Assembly (NCBI RefSeq): GCF_900070355.1
Contig: NZ_LN849456.1
Span: forward strand, 1,364,001 to 1,428,000
Length of the DNA stretch: 64,000 nucleotides
Direction of reading: 5' to 3'
From: Devriesea agamarum
Lineage (GTDB): Bacteria; Actinomycetota; Actinomycetes; Actinomycetales; Dermabacteraceae
Below are positions 8,401 through 42,487 of this stretch, in pieces (the first letter of the stretch is position 1; each line of letters begins with the position of its first letter). The notes beneath the pieces were generated by a model. It saw only the letters and a list, made by a program, of their open reading frames with translations. It was not told the DNA's origin and did no database searches. The position numbers and the translations under genes are program-made.

Positions 8401-9414
8401 ATGCCCATGCAGTTGCCGATCGACCGACCTCGCCGGCTCCGCTCAACCGGCGCCCTACGACGCCTCGTGCGCGAGCACCGGGTCCGTGCATCCGATCTCG
8501 TCTTACCCATGTTCGTCCGAGAAGGCGCCGACGCCCCTCGTGAAATCTCCTCCATGCCCGGAGTCCTTCAGCACACACTGGACTCCCTCGTGCGCGCAGC
8601 CGTCAGCGCCACCGAAGCCGGAGTCGGTGGCATCATGCTTTTCGGAGTGCCGTTATACAAAGACGCCGTCGGCAGTGGCGCCACCGATGATGACGGCATC
8701 TTGAACGTGGCTCTGCGCCGCCTGCGCTCCGAACTCGGAGACGCCACCGTCCTCATGTCAGATCTATGCCTGGACGAGTTCACCGACCACGGTCATTGCG
8801 GCGTGCTCACCGAAGACGGCCGAGTAGACAATGACGCCACCCTCCTGCGCTATCAGCAAATGGCCCTGGTACAAGCAGAAGCAGGCGCACACCTGCTCGG
8901 GCCATCCGGAATGATGGATGGCCAAGTGCGCATCATGCGCCAAGCGCTCGATGCCAAAGGCCACCAGGACGTCGGCATTTTCGCCTACACCGCCAAATAT
9001 GCCTCCGCGTTCTACGGGCCCTTCCGAGAAGCCGTGGACTCATCGCTGACGGGCGACCGCCGCACCTATCAGCAAGATCCCGCTAATGGGTCCGAAGCGC
9101 TGCGCGAGACCGCACTCGATCTCGACGAGGGGGCAGACCTCCTCATGGTGAAACCCGGGCTGCCCTATCTCGACGTACTCAAAGACGTCTGTGCAATCTC
9201 GCCTGTTCCCGTGGGCAGTTATCAGGTTTCCGGTGAATACGCGATGATCGAAGCCGCAGCCGCCAACGGCTGGATCGACCGAGACCGAACCATCTTGGAG
9301 TCGCTGCTCGCATTCCGCCGCGCCGGTGCAAGCATAGTTTTAACGTATTACGCCGCTGAGGTCGCCACTTGGCTCCGCAACGGTTTGCCAGCCCACCTGG
9401 AGGAATTCGCATGA
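8401..9414 (+). CDS. hemB: Delta-aminolevulinic acid dehydratase (porphobilinogen synthase)
   Basis: The 337-residue enzyme condenses two 5-aminolevulinates to porphobilinogen. It starts [18 protein letters not shown] and contains [16 protein letters not shown]. The position that is a second Cys in zinc-type enzymes (CLC) is Asp here, so a Mg2+-type active site is inferred. The Schiff-base lysine region [13 protein letters not shown] and [10 protein letters not shown] are also present. Two ATGs (8401 and 8407) are possible; neither has a ribosome-binding site. It overlaps hemL as ATGA, so both are cotranscribed. Confidence 0.94.
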
Positions 9415-37094: not shown

Positions 37095-37994
37095 ATGTCC
37101 TCATCCAAGTGGCTGACGCGTCTGCGTCTCCTCTGTATCGTTCCCCTGCTCATCGTTTAGGCTGCCTGCGGCAAGCTCGACATGACGATTGATGTCACCA
37201 ATCCCAAAACGGTCAATATGGCCTGGGAGTTTTCCATGCAAAAGGAGCTTGCAAGCCAACTGCTCAACAAGGCGGGTAAGCCAATCGGCCCAGAAGCCAT
37301 GTGCGAGGAAGCTCAGGGCTCCGACTTCTTTGCTAAGACGAACACCAAAATCCAAACTTCAGGTGTACCTTTCGAGAAGGGCGACATCATCGGCTGCCGG
37401 GTGACGCTGACGGTCCCAGCTTCGGAGATGGGCAATGACTTCAAACTCACCACGCAGGGCGACCAATACAATTTCGTCATGGCAAGTGTCCCCCGGGCGA
37501 CGGATGACGATATAAATAAGATCAAAGCCTCAGGCTTTGAGATGAAAATCGTATTCAAGATGCCAGGCAAGGTCCTGAACAGCAACGTGGGCCAGATCTC
37601 GGGCAGCGAGGTCATCGTCACGGATCTTAAACAATTCGTGTCTGGAATCAACGTGACCGGCGAGGCCCCAGCGAAGGCAGAAGCGCCCGCACCGGGCAAG
37701 AACTCCTCCTCGCCGGCAACTAAGAGCGATAAAGCCGCGATGGGCTGGCTCATAGCCTTGATTGCCATCGTGATCGGTCTGTTGATTGTCATCGCGGTCG
37801 TGGTGATCATCATTGTGGTCATGACGAAGTCCAAGAAGAAGCAGGTCCAGCAGAACGGACCCGCGGCCGGCCCGGTGCCGCCCGCTCCCTACGGCCAGGT
37901 ACCTCCAACTAACGGCAACTTTGGCCCGAATGCCCAGGGTCCCGGTCAACCGGATAACGGTGGGAACGGCGACCACCAGAGCCCGCAGAGCTGA
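37095..37994 (+). pseudogene. LppM-like lipoprotein gene interrupted by an amber codon in the lipobox
   Basis: From ATG 37095 (AGGA just upstream) the frame encodes a lipoprotein signal: MSSSKWLTRLRLL, hydrophobic CIVPLLIV, then TAG at 37158-37160, then AACGKLDM in the same frame. A single change such as TTG to TAG would create this; LIV-L-AACG would be a normal lipobox. Downstream, 270 codons are open from ATG 37182: an LppM-type beta-rich domain, a transmembrane helix (LIALIAIVIGLLIVIAVVVI) and a Pro/Gly/Asn-rich cytosolic tail. Without the signal the domain would not be lipidated. A sequencing error or readthrough is also possible. Confidence 0.8.
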
Positions 37995-38184: not shown

Positions 38185-38257
38185 GCGCCTGTAGCTTAAC
38201 GGATAGAGCATCTGACTACGGATCAGAAGGTTGGGGGTTCGAATCCCTCCAGGCGCG
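38185..38257 (+). tRNA. tRNA-Arg(ACG)
   Basis: A 73-base cloverleaf is readable. The acceptor stem GCGCCTG pairs with CAGGCGC, with discriminator G. The anticodon stem TCTGA/TCAGA encloses loop CTACGGA, giving anticodon ACG, and the T arm contains GGTTCGAAT. CCA is not encoded. A weak promoter (TTGGCG at 38132, TAAGCT at 38157, 19-base spacing) lies upstream. It marks the left edge of the AT-richer accessory island. Confidence 0.95.
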
Positions 38258-38261
38258 CAAC

Positions 38262-38295
38262 GGAAGCCCCGTCACCACCGAGTGGCGGGGCTTCC
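38262..38295 (+). terminator. Terminator after tRNA-Arg
   Basis: GGAAGCCCCGTCAC (38262-38275) pairs with GTGGCGGGGCTTCC (38282-38295), 14 bp with one G-T pair, just after the tRNA. Confidence 0.75.
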
Positions 38296-38766
38296 TCATG
38301 TAGTCCCCCGTGGAAGGTCGAGCGTCAACCCCATGCACCCCAAGTCGGCAATCCACCTTTACACTCATAACCTACATTTCCATAGGCTTCGAGCCCGGCA
38401 AGTTTCCCTGAGACATACCCTGCCTTTATAGTGACATCTCGCAATTTCCATCACCCCGAATTCAGGTTGTTGCGACGTAAGGTTGCGGCGGCGCACGACT
38501 CGCAACACACAGCCCCATCCACGGCAATCTCAGCAAATCGCTACACAGCTGGCGGGATGCCCACAGCACATATCCCAACAAATGATGGCCACCCAAATCA
38601 CTAGTAAACGTAGAACCAGTTACACAGAAACTTTCCTGAAGATCTCAAATTAGTTGGCGATGCGGCTACCTATACCCCCATAGCGCTATCTTTGCAATAT
38701 CACATTTATGCCTTACGGACACCAAAAGGGGCTAGGTGTTACCACAGTCACATCATCTCACCCCGA
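38296..38766. other. AT-rich intergenic region at the edge of the accessory island
   Basis: No supported gene was found in these 471 bases. Base composition drops clearly from about 38360 onward compared with the rest of the window. No copy of the tRNA-Arg 3' end or other att-like repeat was found by eye. Confidence 0.5.
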
Positions 38767-38795
38767 CTGAGATGTCCCTCACTTCCAGGTATGAT
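38767..38795 (+). promoter_or_regulatory. Promoter of the putative RiPP cassette
   Basis: CTGAGA (38767-38772) and TATGAT (38790-38795) are separated by 17 bases, a good sigma-70-type match. Predicted transcription would start near 38802, 26 bases before the precursor ATG. Confidence 0.5.
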
Positions 38796-38827
38796 TTCGA
38801 TATAGCGCCGGAGAGGAGGTGTTGACA

Positions 38828-38908
38828 ATGTTTCGGAAGATCGCTGAAGCACTCGGGATCGACGTAGTAATCAGGTGGGACGATAAGTGTCCGGCGTACC
38901 GCCGATGA
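38828..38908 (+). CDS. Putative RiPP precursor peptide, 26 residues
   Basis: The frame starts at ATG 38828 behind a near-perfect GAGGAGGT site at 7 bases and stops at TGA 38906. The peptide has a helical, amphipathic leader-like half (MFRKIAEALGIDVVIR) and a C-terminal half WDDKCPAYRR. The latter has Trp17, Cys21 and a terminal Tyr24-Arg-Arg. Its size resembles PqqA and mycofactocin precursors. The radical SAM gene and ABC exporter follow directly. No family was recognised. Trp-Asp-Asp and Tyr-Arg-Arg fit the aromatic-x-x pattern of three-residue cyclophanes; a Cys thioether is another possibility. Confidence 0.7.
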   Translation: MFRKIAEALGIDVVIRWDDKCPAYRR

Positions 38909-38920
38909 AAAATCTCCCTT

Positions 38921-38954
38921 GGGCGCCCTTGCCTTCCCGGAGCCAAGGGCGCCC
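38921..38954 (+). terminator. Attenuator-like hairpin between precursor and radical SAM gene
   Basis: GGGCGCCCTTG (38921-38931) pairs perfectly with CAAGGGCGCCC (38944-38954), with a 12-base loop and no T tract. It lies 13 bases after the precursor stop and its right arm covers the only ribosome-binding-like sequence before GTG 38959. It could keep precursor transcript in excess over enzyme transcript. Confidence 0.6.
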
Positions 38955-38958
38955 TCCT

Positions 38959-40128
38959 GTGTCAAGCAGAGCCACAATATGGGCAGCACGGGGGCGTACA
39001 TGCTCCGTTGTGACGACTGAGAAATATAGGGCCGTGGGCCCCAAATGGATGATCAGCAGGTCTGGGAAATTAAGAGTCCCTGCGCACTGGCTCCAGCACT
39101 TGTCTGCGCCGCCGCCTAGAGCTGAGTCGCAAGCGTTTGACGTGGCCTATCATCCTGGGTTCGCATGCAATCTATCCTGCAAATACTGCTATCAGGCAGC
39201 CGAGGGACAGGAAGGCCTGTCATCGCGTATCGCGACAGGTAAAGACCGCGCCAAACCTAGTGACATTGCTAGATTCGTGCAATCAAAAATGCGTGAGGCC
39301 GAAGCAAACAACTGTACGGTCACTCTACTTGGAGGAGAACCCCTTCTCTACATGCCTGAAATCGAGAAATTCTTGCTTGAGCTTCGCCTACTAACACCCG
39401 TCACTCATGTACTTATGATAACAAATGGAACTCTCTTAAAGAAGAACACCCTTCAATGGCTTACTGCGATCGGATGCCTGCAGCTTCAGATCACATTGGA
39501 TGGCTGGCGTGTTCAACACGACCAGTTCCGTCACCTGCGAAATGGCAAAGGTACATATAGTGACACATTGCGGATGATAAACTTTGCCTCTAATGCCAAT
39601 ATAAGTATAGTTTTGCGGATCAACGTGACAAGTTACAACATCGCTCAGATCCCACACCTTCTCGACGACGTCCAGCACTTGGATTGCGCAGGTGATATAT
39701 CGATCTACTTCTCTTTAATAAACGATACAGAAGCATTTAAGGACGAGAATATAGAGTCGTCGGTGATGGCTAAGCGCTACGGCGCACTCCACTTCGATGC
39801 GGCAAGTCGAGGTTTAAATATCCTCAATCCTTCCCATAGAGGTAATTGTACCGTTTGCCAAACCCCTGAGGGTGGAGTGGTTTCAAACGGAGGCCTGGTT
39901 GTTTCTAGTACCGGGAAACTCTATAGCTGCTGGGAAAGCGCAGGTCAGGCAGGACGTGACGTCGGAAATGTAGTAGACGGATACGATCCAGCACGCTTTA
40001 AAGCCAACTGGGTGCAGTGCGGATATCACGGGGGCAGAAGCACTATCTTTCAGCGGCACGCGGAGAACTGGGCGTTCCTTGGGATGGAAGATGGGAAACG
40101 CGTCCACCTAGGATCAGCGGCGACATAA
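38959..40128 (+). CDS. Radical SAM peptide-modifying enzyme (SPASM-like)
   Basis: Counting from GTG 38959 (389 residues), the radical SAM motif CNLSCKYC is at residues 70-77, LLGGEPLLY supplies the SAM-binding GGE, and ITNGTLL, LQITLDG and LRINVT continue the barrel. The C-terminus has CTVC, SCWE and a further Cys in WVQCGYH, as in SPASM/twitch auxiliary-cluster domains. The start is uncertain: GTG 38959, GTG 39010 or ATG 39049. Codons are AT-richer than in neighbouring core genes. Between a 26-residue peptide gene and an ABC exporter, the natural reading is a RiPP maturase. I see no clear PqqD-like RRE domain. Confidence 0.85.
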   Translation: MSSRATIWAARGRTCSVVTTEKYRAVGPKWMISRSGKLRVPAHWLQHLSAPPPRAESQAFDVAYHPGFACNLSCKYCYQAAEGQEGLSSRIATGKDRAKPSDIARFVQSKMREAEANNCTVTLLGGEPLLYMPEIEKFLLELRLLTPVTHVLMITNGTLLKKNTLQWLTAIGCLQLQITLDGWRVQHDQFRHLRNGKGTYSDTLRMINFASNANISIVLRINVTSYNIAQIPHLLDDVQHLDCAGDISIYFSLINDTEAFKDENIESSVMAKRYGALHFDAASRGLNILNPSHRGNCTVCQTPEGGVVSNGGLVVSSTGKLYSCWESAGQAGRDVGNVVDGYDPARFKANWVQCGYHGGRSTIFQRHAENWAFLGMEDGKRVHLGSAAT

Positions 40129-40149
40129 CAGGCTCCTGGGAGGTGCTAA

Positions 40150-41886
40150 ATGAAGCGAATATGGTCAGCCAGTCGATGGAGCTTGGCCTTCGCGTTCAGA
40201 TCAGCGCCTTGGCTGATGACCATCACAGTCATCGTGACTTTAGTGACCGCATTAGTGCCCAGTGCCCAGGTAATCCTCGTAGGAAAACTGACCGACGCGG
40301 TAGGCGCTGGAGACTCAGCAGGCGCAACATTATGGGCCGTCGTCACGGGTGTAGTAGTCGCCGGATATTTAGCGTTACAGCAGGTCATGTACGCGGTTCA
40401 ACGCATGACCCAGGTGGTGTTGACCGCAGACATGTCGGTGCAGGTTGATCGTGTGCTGAGCGGGCTGGAACCAATAGACATCGCGGACCAGCATCTTCAA
40501 GCGAAAGCGCGTGGCGCGCGCGAGGCAGTCGTCGAAGGCAAGGTGCAGCTTCAGGCAACCTCACTCCTATCCTTGGTCTTCGCGGTGGTTGTCGCAGGGT
40601 CACTGTGTTTAGCCATTGGCCGCAGCAGCATCGGTGCCGCTCTGTTCGTGCTGGGGTGCTTGGTGCCGCTGACAGTGTCCTCGATGTGGTACGCGAAGAA
40701 AGATGCGAAGATCTGGCCGTCGATCTCTGAGGAGCGTCGTCGCGGCGATTACAAACAGGACCAGATCACCTATCAAACGACCGCCACCGAACTCGCAACG
40801 CTCGGCGCATCCAACACGATGGCGCAGGGGGCGGCAGTGCATCGCTATGCCGCTCGCGGTCACGAACTTGCGCTTGAAAGGGTCTCGGTCATCGGCGACG
40901 GGCTAGCAGGTATTGTGTCAGCCTTTTGCCTCATCGGAGCCCTGTTATTTCTCGTATCACAGGACCTATCCCCCGGCGCGTTGGCAGGCGGAGCCGTGGG
41001 CATTTTATCCGGAATCCTAGCTACCGGTAACGTTGGTTTTGTCGTCGGCAGCCTGATGTCCGGGGCGAACGCGGTCGAGCGTTATCGCGCCTTTGTTGAT
41101 CGACCTACCAAAGCTTTATCTTCAAGGCCGCTCGTGGATCACCCCAGGATCATTGAGACACGCGACCTGTCGGTTCGATACCCCTCACGGCAAGAGGAGT
41201 CCCTGTCTAATGCATCGATTATCGCGCGGCAGGGCGAGATGATTGCCCTCGTCGGCCCCAACGGCGCGGGAAAGTCGACGCTCGTGAAAGGTCTGATGGG
41301 TATGGCTCCCGTCAATGGCGGCTCAGTGCTCTTCGATGGCATCGATGTCACCGATCAGGGATTTCAGGAGCGCCGCCCCTGCTTTGGACTGCTATCCCAG
41401 GAGTTCGGTCGGTATGAGTTGACGGTGCGCGAAAACCTGCTGCTTGGCGCACAAAGCGGCAGCCCTGGCGATCAGAAGCTGTGGGAAGCCCTTGAGGCCG
41501 CGCGTGCGGCTGACTACGTCCGCGCCCTCGACGGCGGCTTGGATGCGCAACTCGGAGAGCAGTGGGGAGGCTCGGGTCTATCCGGTGGACAGTGGCAGCG
41601 TCTCGCCTTGGCCAGACTCATGTTGCGCGACGCGGCCGTATGGATTCTCGATGAGCCGACCAGCGCCATTGATGCCGAGGCGGAGGAGGAAATCTTCGCC
41701 GAGCTCCATCGCGTTGCCGCTGATCACATCACAATCGTCGTCTCACACCGGGCCTGGACTCTGCGGCACTGCGACCGCATATATGTTGTCGACGGGGGCC
41801 GCATTGTCGAGTCCGGATCCTTCCAGCAGCTCAAAGAGGGCGGGGGACGCTTCGCAGCATTGTTCGCCACCCAAAATGCCCAGTAG
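40150..41886 (+). CDS. ABC exporter, fused membrane and ATPase domains
   Basis: The 578-residue protein has an N-terminal six-helix exporter domain (residues 1-320; APWLMTITVIVTLVTAL is the first helix) and an ATPase domain with GPNGAGKST (Walker A), LSGGQWQRLALARLML (signature), AVWILDEPTSAID (Walker B) and a switch His in VVSHRAW. There is no peptidase C39 domain, so the leader would need another protease, or the whole peptide is exported. GGGAGGTG lies 6 bases before the ATG, and it begins 21 bases after the radical SAM gene. It probably exports the modified peptide and may confer self-immunity. Confidence 0.9.
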   Translation: MKRIWSASRWSLAFAFRSAPWLMTITVIVTLVTALVPSAQVILVGKLTDAVGAGDSAGATLWAVVTGVVVAGYLALQQVMYAVQRMTQVVLTADMSVQVDRVLSGLEPIDIADQHLQAKARGAREAVVEGKVQLQATSLLSLVFAVVVAGSLCLAIGRSSIGAALFVLGCLVPLTVSSMWYAKKDAKIWPSISEERRRGDYKQDQITYQTTATELATLGASNTMAQGAAVHRYAARGHELALERVSVIGDGLAGIVSAFCLIGALLFLVSQDLSPGALAGGAVGILSGILATGNVGFVVGSLMSGANAVERYRAFVDRPTKALSSRPLVDHPRIIETRDLSVRYPSRQEESLSNASIIARQGEMIALVGPNGAGKSTLVKGLMGMAPVNGGSVLFDGIDVTDQGFQERRPCFGLLSQEFGRYELTVRENLLLGAQSGSPGDQKLWEALEAARAADYVRALDGGLDAQLGEQWGGSGLSGGQWQRLALARLMLRDAAVWILDEPTSAIDAEAEEEIFAELHRVAADHITIVVSHRAWTLRHCDRIYVVDGGRIVESGSFQQLKEGGGRFAALFATQNAQ

Positions 41887-41990: not shown

Positions 41991-42487
41991 ATGGTCGAGC
42001 TCGCATATCAGAGGGCCCGCAAGGAAGCACGAAGGCTACTGGAAGTGTGCTGGGACGGAAAGTCCCGGTTGATTTACGGCCTATAACCGATGAGCTGAAT
42101 GCCGAGTTATATCGCGCAGACCTCGGGAACAGCTTGTCCGGCCTGGTTTCAAAAGACAAAGGGAAACCCGCGCGGATCGTCTTGAACTCGCGCCACGTTG
42201 ATCGGCGTAACCGTTTCACGTGAGCGCACGAGCTCGGTCACATCGTGGAGCGAAAGAATATCGCAGGTGACGATGACTATTCCTTCGAGGAGCTCACGCG
42301 CGGTCGCGAGTACGATTTACACGAGTTTTTCGCAGATGAGTTCGCAGGAGCCCTGCTCATGCCCTCCTTCGCGATTAACCACCTAAAGAGCAAGGGCGTC
42401 ACGGTCGAAGAAATGGCGAACTATTTTAACGTCTCCATAGATGCCGTTAATAAATGCCTTGAACGACTAGCTAAGAATCCAGAATGA
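41991..42487 (+). pseudogene. ImmA/IrrE-type metallopeptidase, frameshifted and interrupted
   Basis: From ATG 41991 the frame reads MVELAYQRARKEARRLLEVCWDGK, then runs out at TAA after a one-base loss near 42060. The next frame continues VPVDLRPITDEL and on through NRFT, TGA at 42221-42223, then AHELGHIVER with the zinc motif HELGH. It goes on as FADEFAGALLMP, typical of phage/ICE ImmA proteases. Two lesions make the gene almost certainly inactive, though the last 80 codons could be translated from ATG 42245. It overlaps the next gene as ATGA. Confidence 0.8.

Follow-up and report, generated by a model that had tools for sequence, protein, structure and literature searches.

What kind of product is made by a locus in which a 26-codon gene is followed by a radical S-adenosylmethionine (SAM) enzyme gene and an ATP-binding cassette (ABC) exporter gene, and which residue of the short peptide would the enzyme modify? 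Such a locus lies at positions 38767 to 41886 of a 64,000-nt stretch of the Devriesea agamarum genome (contig NZ_LN849456.1), the whole of which is called the window here, and the products of the locus are accordingly called the window peptide, window enzyme and window exporter. We favor, with somewhat better than even confidence, its identification as a three-gene cassette for a ribosomally synthesized and post-translationally modified peptide (RiPP), with an enzyme from a new radical SAM subfamily, and with a thioether at Cys21, likely to Asp18 or Asp19, in an exported bioactive peptide. An earlier note, made from the sequence alone, had proposed a compact, uncharacterized cassette of the RiPP type, and this proposal is upheld: the window enzyme reaches no family cut-off among the best 25 of the 72 NCBIfam families that it matches, and short frames precede the enzyme genes in all three other loci of the subfamily, which come from Trueperella, Rothia and Ancrocorticia. 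The features of the cassette are as follows.

38767..38795, + strand: promoter-like CTGAGA-17-TATGAT, with 9/12 consensus matches; the number of such sites is not above that in shuffles
38815..38819, + strand: ribosome-binding site GGAGG, 8 nt 5' of the ATG, as read from the sequence
38828..38908, + strand: precursor peptide gene, 26 aa, with related frames upstream of the enzyme gene in Trueperella and Rothia
38921..38954, + strand: hairpin between the precursor and enzyme genes, found by folding (z -3.4 against 300 mononucleotide shuffles)
38959..40128, + strand: radical SAM peptide maturase, 389 aa from GTG 38959, recognized by Pfam, NCBIfam, homology and a structural model
40150..41886, + strand: ABC exporter, 578 aa, with an ABC_tran Pfam match and no Pfam peptidase-domain match

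The precursor gene extends from ATG 38828 to the stop codon at 38906-38908, and its 26 codons specify MFRKIAEALGIDVVIRWDDKCPAYRR, a peptide that occurs once in the 2.96-Mb genome of its own organism. GTG 38819, which overlaps the ribosome-binding site, is an alternative start in the same frame, giving 29 aa. The peptide can be divided approximately into a leader (about residues 1-16) and a core (about residues 17-26, W-D-D-K-C-P-A-Y-R-R) that bears Cys21, the single Cys in the 26-aa precursor, with the boundary being our estimate from the residue pattern. The strong ribosome-binding site and the hairpin after the gene, both described in the earlier note, are present, but the dedicated promoter that it assigned to the precursor is not supported, with 4 sites of this type found versus a shuffle mean of 2.5, not above chance. 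Including the precursor and enzyme frames, 21 frames of at least 20 aa overlap the interval from the tRNA gene upstream of the cassette to the enzyme gene (38259-38958).

Radical SAM and ABC genes follow a short frame and a hairpin, in the same order, in all four loci of the subfamily, the window included; thus, the search for short frames beside enzyme homologs that the earlier note had suggested was successful for each of the three relatives, each with its hairpin. The Trueperella precursor, MLLALLRKLGFGTFTPMDDKCP followed by a stop, aligns with the window peptide without gaps and is identical to it at 8 of 22 positions (Met1, Leu9, Gly10, Asp18, Asp19, Lys20, Cys21 and Pro22); none of 20000 shuffles attained its ungapped score of 34, the best among 380 short frames in that locus, where the next one scored 1. 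The Rothia precursor, MVKFMCNLFGIEIVPAGGGRCADHCGGRMPIPGQKPL, has Gly10, Ile11, Val14 and Cys21 in register with the window peptide, and its score of 14 was reached by 3 of 20000 shuffles and is the joint best of 474 short frames, the other one being located inside an ABC gene. In Ancrocorticia, the pattern holds in frame 0 through MLLILLRKLGFGSVTPMGG and is lost beyond it, and the other frame, 3' of a seven-G run, reads GGDTCPARYIQR followed by a stop and carries Asp-x-Cys-Pro. Compared with the Trueperella precursor, Ancrocorticia frame 0 scores 54 (0 of 20000 shuffles). For the change of frame in this precursor (locus L023, 5744-5870), sequencing error, phase variation and frameshifting are candidate causes.

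Thus, a short gene conserved beside a modifying enzyme, the general hallmark of RiPP loci, was found, with the Trueperella and Rothia frames scoring above shuffles and Ancrocorticia frame 0 not doing so. The core Cys is in register in the window, Trueperella and Rothia peptides and appears in the second frame only in Ancrocorticia, as expected for the Cys donor of a ranthipeptide. Trp is present in one of the four precursors, that is, there is no conserved aromatic-x-x motif of the cyclophane kind among them. The earlier note had named Trp17, Cys21 and Tyr24-Arg25-Arg26 as residues whose conservation would point to a modified core; the core Cys is indeed the shared residue, whereas Trp17 and the strict Tyr-Arg-Arg are found in the window peptide alone. 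In addition, a strong hairpin is located within about 40 nt 3' of the precursor in all four loci (z -3.4 in the window, -4.6 in Rothia, -2.8 in Trueperella and -4.4 in Ancrocorticia, from 300 mononucleotide shuffles each as the sole control, on stretches of 70, 70, 80 and 130 nt picked by position). The distance from the stop codon to the stem is 12 nt in both the window and Rothia and about 36 nt in Trueperella; in Ancrocorticia, measured from the second-frame stop, it is about 23 nt. The hairpin sequences differ among the four loci, and what they have in common is position and strength.

The open frame of the enzyme gene reaches back beyond the precursor stop and can also be read from GTG 38887 and from ATG 38905, the latter overlapping the precursor stop codon; GTG 38959 appears to be the best start because the homology with the Rothia and Ancrocorticia enzymes begins near W-A-A-R-G. 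The enzyme is one of 11 radical SAM (PF04055) matches in its own genome and scores 60.8 bits against a Pfam cut-off of 29.5. The earlier note had called it SPASM-like, and the radical SAM part of this description holds, but there is no Pfam SPASM match, so that the term can refer only to the conserved Cys pattern. CNLSCKYC (CxxxCxxC) and four C-terminal Cys are shared by the window, Rothia and Ancrocorticia enzymes, as expected of a SPASM or twitch enzyme; past the radical SAM half, the pattern common to the three consists of C-x2-C, followed by the Cys in LYSCW and the Cys in W-V-Q/R-C-G-Y, and these four Cys would fit one auxiliary cluster.

The highest NCBIfam scores of the window enzyme, far from the respective cut-offs, were for CefB (NF038107; 107.8 bits, cut-off 600), TIGR04463 (103.3, cut-off 525) and PapB (83.8, cut-off 340), followed by FlmE/OhkG (80.9, cut-off 500), Clo7bot (78, cut-off 600) and geopeptide (74.4, cut-off 400), and the same six families are matched by all three subfamily members. 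Models of cyclophane makers scored lower, none passing (YhhB, 61.9 against 445; FxsB, 58.2 against 370; DynA, 51.9 against 450), as did the streptosactin maturase GggB (53 bits) and the SCIFF maturase model (46.6 against 425). The best scores thus belong mostly to maturases of Cys-containing peptides, which we count in favor of a Cys thioether. The AlphaFold2 model of the enzyme, built from 4 sequences (predicted local distance difference test, pLDDT, 69.7; predicted template modeling score, pTM, 0.71), had as its best Foldseek matches 5why/5wgg, an entry with thioether bond formation in its title, which we take to be CteB, and then SkfB, which is also the best PDB sequence match of the window enzyme. 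Similarity to these folds extends over most of the model (VIA-align Z 21.4 for 5why_A, with 295 residues aligned at a root-mean-square deviation of 3.4, and 18.2 for SkfB, with 268 residues aligned at 3.8); ChlB and anSME reached Z of 20.7 and 20.6, respectively.

In the mechanism that we propose, the 26-aa precursor would be translated from the strong ribosome-binding site, with the hairpin probably keeping the precursor mRNA in excess over that of the enzyme. The enzyme, with one auxiliary iron-sulphur cluster on the four conserved Cys, would bind the leader through a motif around Leu9-Gly10 and link Cys21 by a thioether to a residue close by, with Asp18 or Asp19 as the most likely partner, and the ABC exporter would send the product out. 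The exporter has no peptidase domain among its Pfam matches and, therefore, the leader either would be cut by a host protease or would stay in place. A small antimicrobial or signaling peptide would be the most likely product, and self-protection through export is plausible. More tentatively, and with limited credence, the cross-link itself might be of an undescribed kind, for example, a tight non-alpha Cys thioether to the Asp two residues upstream (Asp19-Lys20-Cys21), in which case these very short actinobacterial RiPPs would form a new class.

Several observations weigh against a Cys21 thioether made by a new subfamily. The thioether chemistry is inferred. Compared with the window peptide, Ancrocorticia frame 0 scores -15, a value reached by 2261 of 20000 shuffles, and falls outside the top six of 486 frames in that locus, where the top score, 19, belongs to a frame beginning within the precursor region. 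To find Asp-x-Cys in all four loci, one has to include the Ancrocorticia second frame and the second Rothia Cys, and the Rothia Asp-x-Cys is out of register with Cys21 of the window peptide. The precursors of two of the three relatives are damaged or disturbed, which makes for a thin alignment. The window enzyme scores far below the cut-offs of the 25 best of the 72 NCBIfam models, its structural model is of mediocre quality, and 5why, ChlB and anSME are tied, so that the structural ranking cannot single out a thioether enzyme.

The damage in the relatives bears on one more point of the earlier note, for which frame-breaking changes in relatives would have spoken against the cassette. Such changes were found in part: the Trueperella locus is broken and the Cys-bearing end of the Ancrocorticia precursor is in the other frame, but the leader and gene order survive. 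In Trueperella, the precursor stops right after Cys-Pro, the enzyme is in two pieces in different frames (matching positions 11-136 and 248-378 of the 385 in the search model), and the exporter changes frame in its ATPase part. We read these frame breaks as decay or sequence error, and Trueperella in particular as a decayed, once working cassette, because its leader, core, gene order and hairpin are still recognizable.

Among the other explanations, cross-linking at Trp17 or Tyr24-Arg25 through a carbon-carbon or ether bond (as a cyclophane, a dynobactin-like product or one of the Arg-Tyr type), with Cys21 incidental, could account for the aromatic-x-x and Tyr-Arg of the window core and for the weak matches to the DynA, YhhB and FxsB models. 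We nevertheless consider it unlikely: Trp is confined to one precursor, whereas the Cys is shared; neither the Rothia peptide nor the truncated Trueperella peptide contains Tyr-Arg, and Ancrocorticia has Arg-Tyr in the second frame only. Because Trp17 and the strict Tyr-Arg-Arg occur only in the window, a Trp cyclophane was dropped as first choice.

A closer variant keeps the Cys and changes the bond, with a sactipeptide-type alpha-carbon thioether, or an epimerized peptide, in place of the non-alpha thioether to Asp. SkfB, as the best PDB sequence match and one of the structural matches, speaks for this variant, and sactionine rings with one residue between the linked positions occur in the QMP subfamily (PMC13361665). 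Against it, as weak evidence, the ranthipeptide maturase PapB is among the nearest NCBIfam neighbors and the score of GggB is low. We consider this variant quite unlikely.

The window cassette might also be an inactive relic that is decaying as in Trueperella, where the cassette is broken, and an ImmA-like neighbor of the window cassette is broken as well. This appears improbable, given that no stop codon interrupts any of the three window frames, that the enzyme retains CxxxCxxC, GGEP and the four C-terminal Cys, and that the exporter retains the Walker A and SGGQ motifs. Finally, the short frame and its hairpin could serve regulation, as a leader peptide with an attenuator, the enzyme having some other substrate, as the strong hairpin after the frame in all four loci and the other short frames between the tRNA and enzyme genes could suggest. 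We consider this highly improbable: the Trueperella and Rothia peptides retain leader and core residues in a gapless alignment, and several distant relatives also have Cys-bearing short frames.

With a Cys21 thioether as the favored product, the closest known systems are PapB/freyrasin and the SCIFF ranthipeptides (CteB, Tte1186), which likewise combine a radical SAM enzyme carrying auxiliary-cluster Cys with a Cys donor near acidic residues; the PapB model matches the window enzyme, and the presumed CteB structure is its top structural match. Unlike in these systems, however, the window precursor has a single Cys and no Cys-rich array, and the PapB and SCIFF scores are well below their cut-offs. 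The streptococcal NxxC radical SAM-RiPPs (RaS-RiPPs) resemble the cassette in combining a radical SAM gene with a precursor Cys that has a candidate acceptor 2-3 residues upstream; according to PMC8326336, a thioether at the beta-carbon links Cys23 to Asn20 in NxxcA and Cys to Asp in freyrasin. In the window, by contrast, the acceptor would be Asp and not Asn, the host is an actinobacterium, and no NxxC-named model is among the best 25 of the 72 families matched. Rgg-type regulation was discarded as well, with no such frame upstream of the precursor: between the tRNA and precursor genes, no frame exceeds 66 aa except for an 82-aa antisense frame over the precursor. CefB and TIGR04463 give the highest NCBIfam scores, but the window precursor lacks the Cys-rich pattern implied by these family names. 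Thus, the cassette seems to work like a ranthipeptide or RaS-RiPP system and is not filed under any named family, because none of the 25 best models was passed.

The exact core sequences of the window and Trueperella peptides had no match in the open-access literature. A description of the cassette was likewise absent from the titles and opening abstract lines of the open-access papers listed, most subscription papers being outside this scope, and from passages of PMC13347742 and PMC8549736. Short radical SAM-modified peptides are a known kind; the subfamily and the likely motif appear to be new. The cassette offers a compact, easily expressed enzyme-substrate pair, present in actinobacteria of four genera and below all the cut-offs considered, and shifts the testable prediction away from Trp or Tyr-Arg-Arg, toward Cys21 and either Asp18 or Asp19. 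If correct, this prediction would add a small thioether macrocycle, possibly a new antimicrobial or signal.

The subfamily looks rare and scattered over the four genera. Whole-genome searches with the window enzyme (E 1e-15; larger groups were sampled, and the samples overlap) yielded matches in 1 of 47 genomes of its own family (its own alone), in 5 of 396 of the order (subfamily members in its own genome, G100 and G265, and more distant enzymes, outside the subfamily, in G146 and G230) and in 12 of 394 of the class. With a three-row alignment, matches were obtained in 4 of 213 genomes of the Trueperella family, including G830 and G832 (E about 4e-26), and in 1 of 295 of the Rothia family, both at 1e-25, and in 1 of 396 of the phylum at 1e-50. 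When the contigs of 84,980 species genomes were scanned, the window enzyme as the only query recovered no relative, and an alignment recovered four loci, from Rothia sp. RSM386, Ancrocorticia populi, Trueperella bernardiae and a distant member of the Selenomonadales (L025, 26% identity) outside the subfamily. Viral contigs gave zero pattern matches and, in another scan, 37 stretches, none of which was confirmed, and the 61 plasmid and 4 phage records found were all below 60% identity. In the phylogenetic tree, from which the broken Trueperella enzyme was left out, the enzymes of the window, Rothia and Ancrocorticia group together as a single clade with a support of 99/100.

Nine wider actinobacterial loci (L004, L005, L011-L016 and L021) encode enzymes with 30-35% identity and differ from the window locus in their precursor sequences; the eight placed in the tree (L021 was not included) are all outside the window clade. 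In six of the nine (L005, L011 and L013-L016), a permissive filter with no chance control picked out a short frame just before the enzyme gene that is preceded by a stretch resembling a ribosome-binding site and encodes Cys and acidic residues, and no convincing short frame was seen upstream in L004, L012 and L021. L018-L020, from another branch of the tree and excluded from this count, show such frames in two of three cases, and L017, the remaining one of the 13 loci covered, contributed no output. The count of six in nine suggests that a precursor Cys is common beyond the subfamily. Another precursor family, with V-V-A-H followed by acidic residues and Cys, accompanies related enzymes in L013, L014, L015 and L016, from large-genome actinobacteria. 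L019 (about 815-1030) contains two tandem 25-aa precursor-like frames upstream of a radical SAM gene, identical at 18 of 25 positions and ending in Cys.

The ABC exporter described in the earlier note was confirmed by the ABC_tran match (99.4 bits, cut-off 25) and is 36-39% identical to two Rothia exporters and the Ancrocorticia exporter. The two tandem Rothia exporters (L007, 1090-4654, minus strand) share a long identical protein stretch in their ATPase halves, as if by recent gene conversion. Around the window cassette, two further features were identified.

38185..38258, + strand: tRNA-Arg (acg), predicted by ARAGORN
41991..42487, + strand: ImmA/IrrE-like (Peptidase_M78) gene, broken by a frame change and an in-frame stop just before HELGH

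The tRNA gene that the earlier note had placed beside the cassette is therefore present, and the broken ImmA/IrrE-like gene downstream may be a mobile-element remnant. The AT-richness noted for the region applies to the enzyme gene, with a GC content of 0.508 (0.518 at third positions) versus 0.604 in the window and with the 39001-40000 bin (0.495) being the lowest of 64 one-kb bins, but not to the exporter gene, which is ordinary at 0.599 (0.67 at third positions); the third-position values of two neighboring genes are 0.724 and 0.673. A 28-base pattern from the tRNA 3' end matched only the tRNA itself within the window, and a 17-base pattern had one further hit, at 9391, with 3 mismatches (0.35 expected by chance overall). 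Horizontal acquisition, which the earlier note considered likely, is made plausible by composition and by the scattered distribution, which fits transfer without proving it; the ordinary exporter and the lack of a tRNA-end repeat in the window stand on the other side, the latter leaving integration at the tRNA unproven. Because 454 reads are prone to run-length errors, some caution would be called for if the window belongs to an assembly made from them. The D. agamarum assembly was built from such reads, with a consensus of 2,953,346 bp (PMC4543515). Upstream of the tRNA gene, window positions 37182-37994 encode a protein with a weak LppM-like match, below the cut-off.

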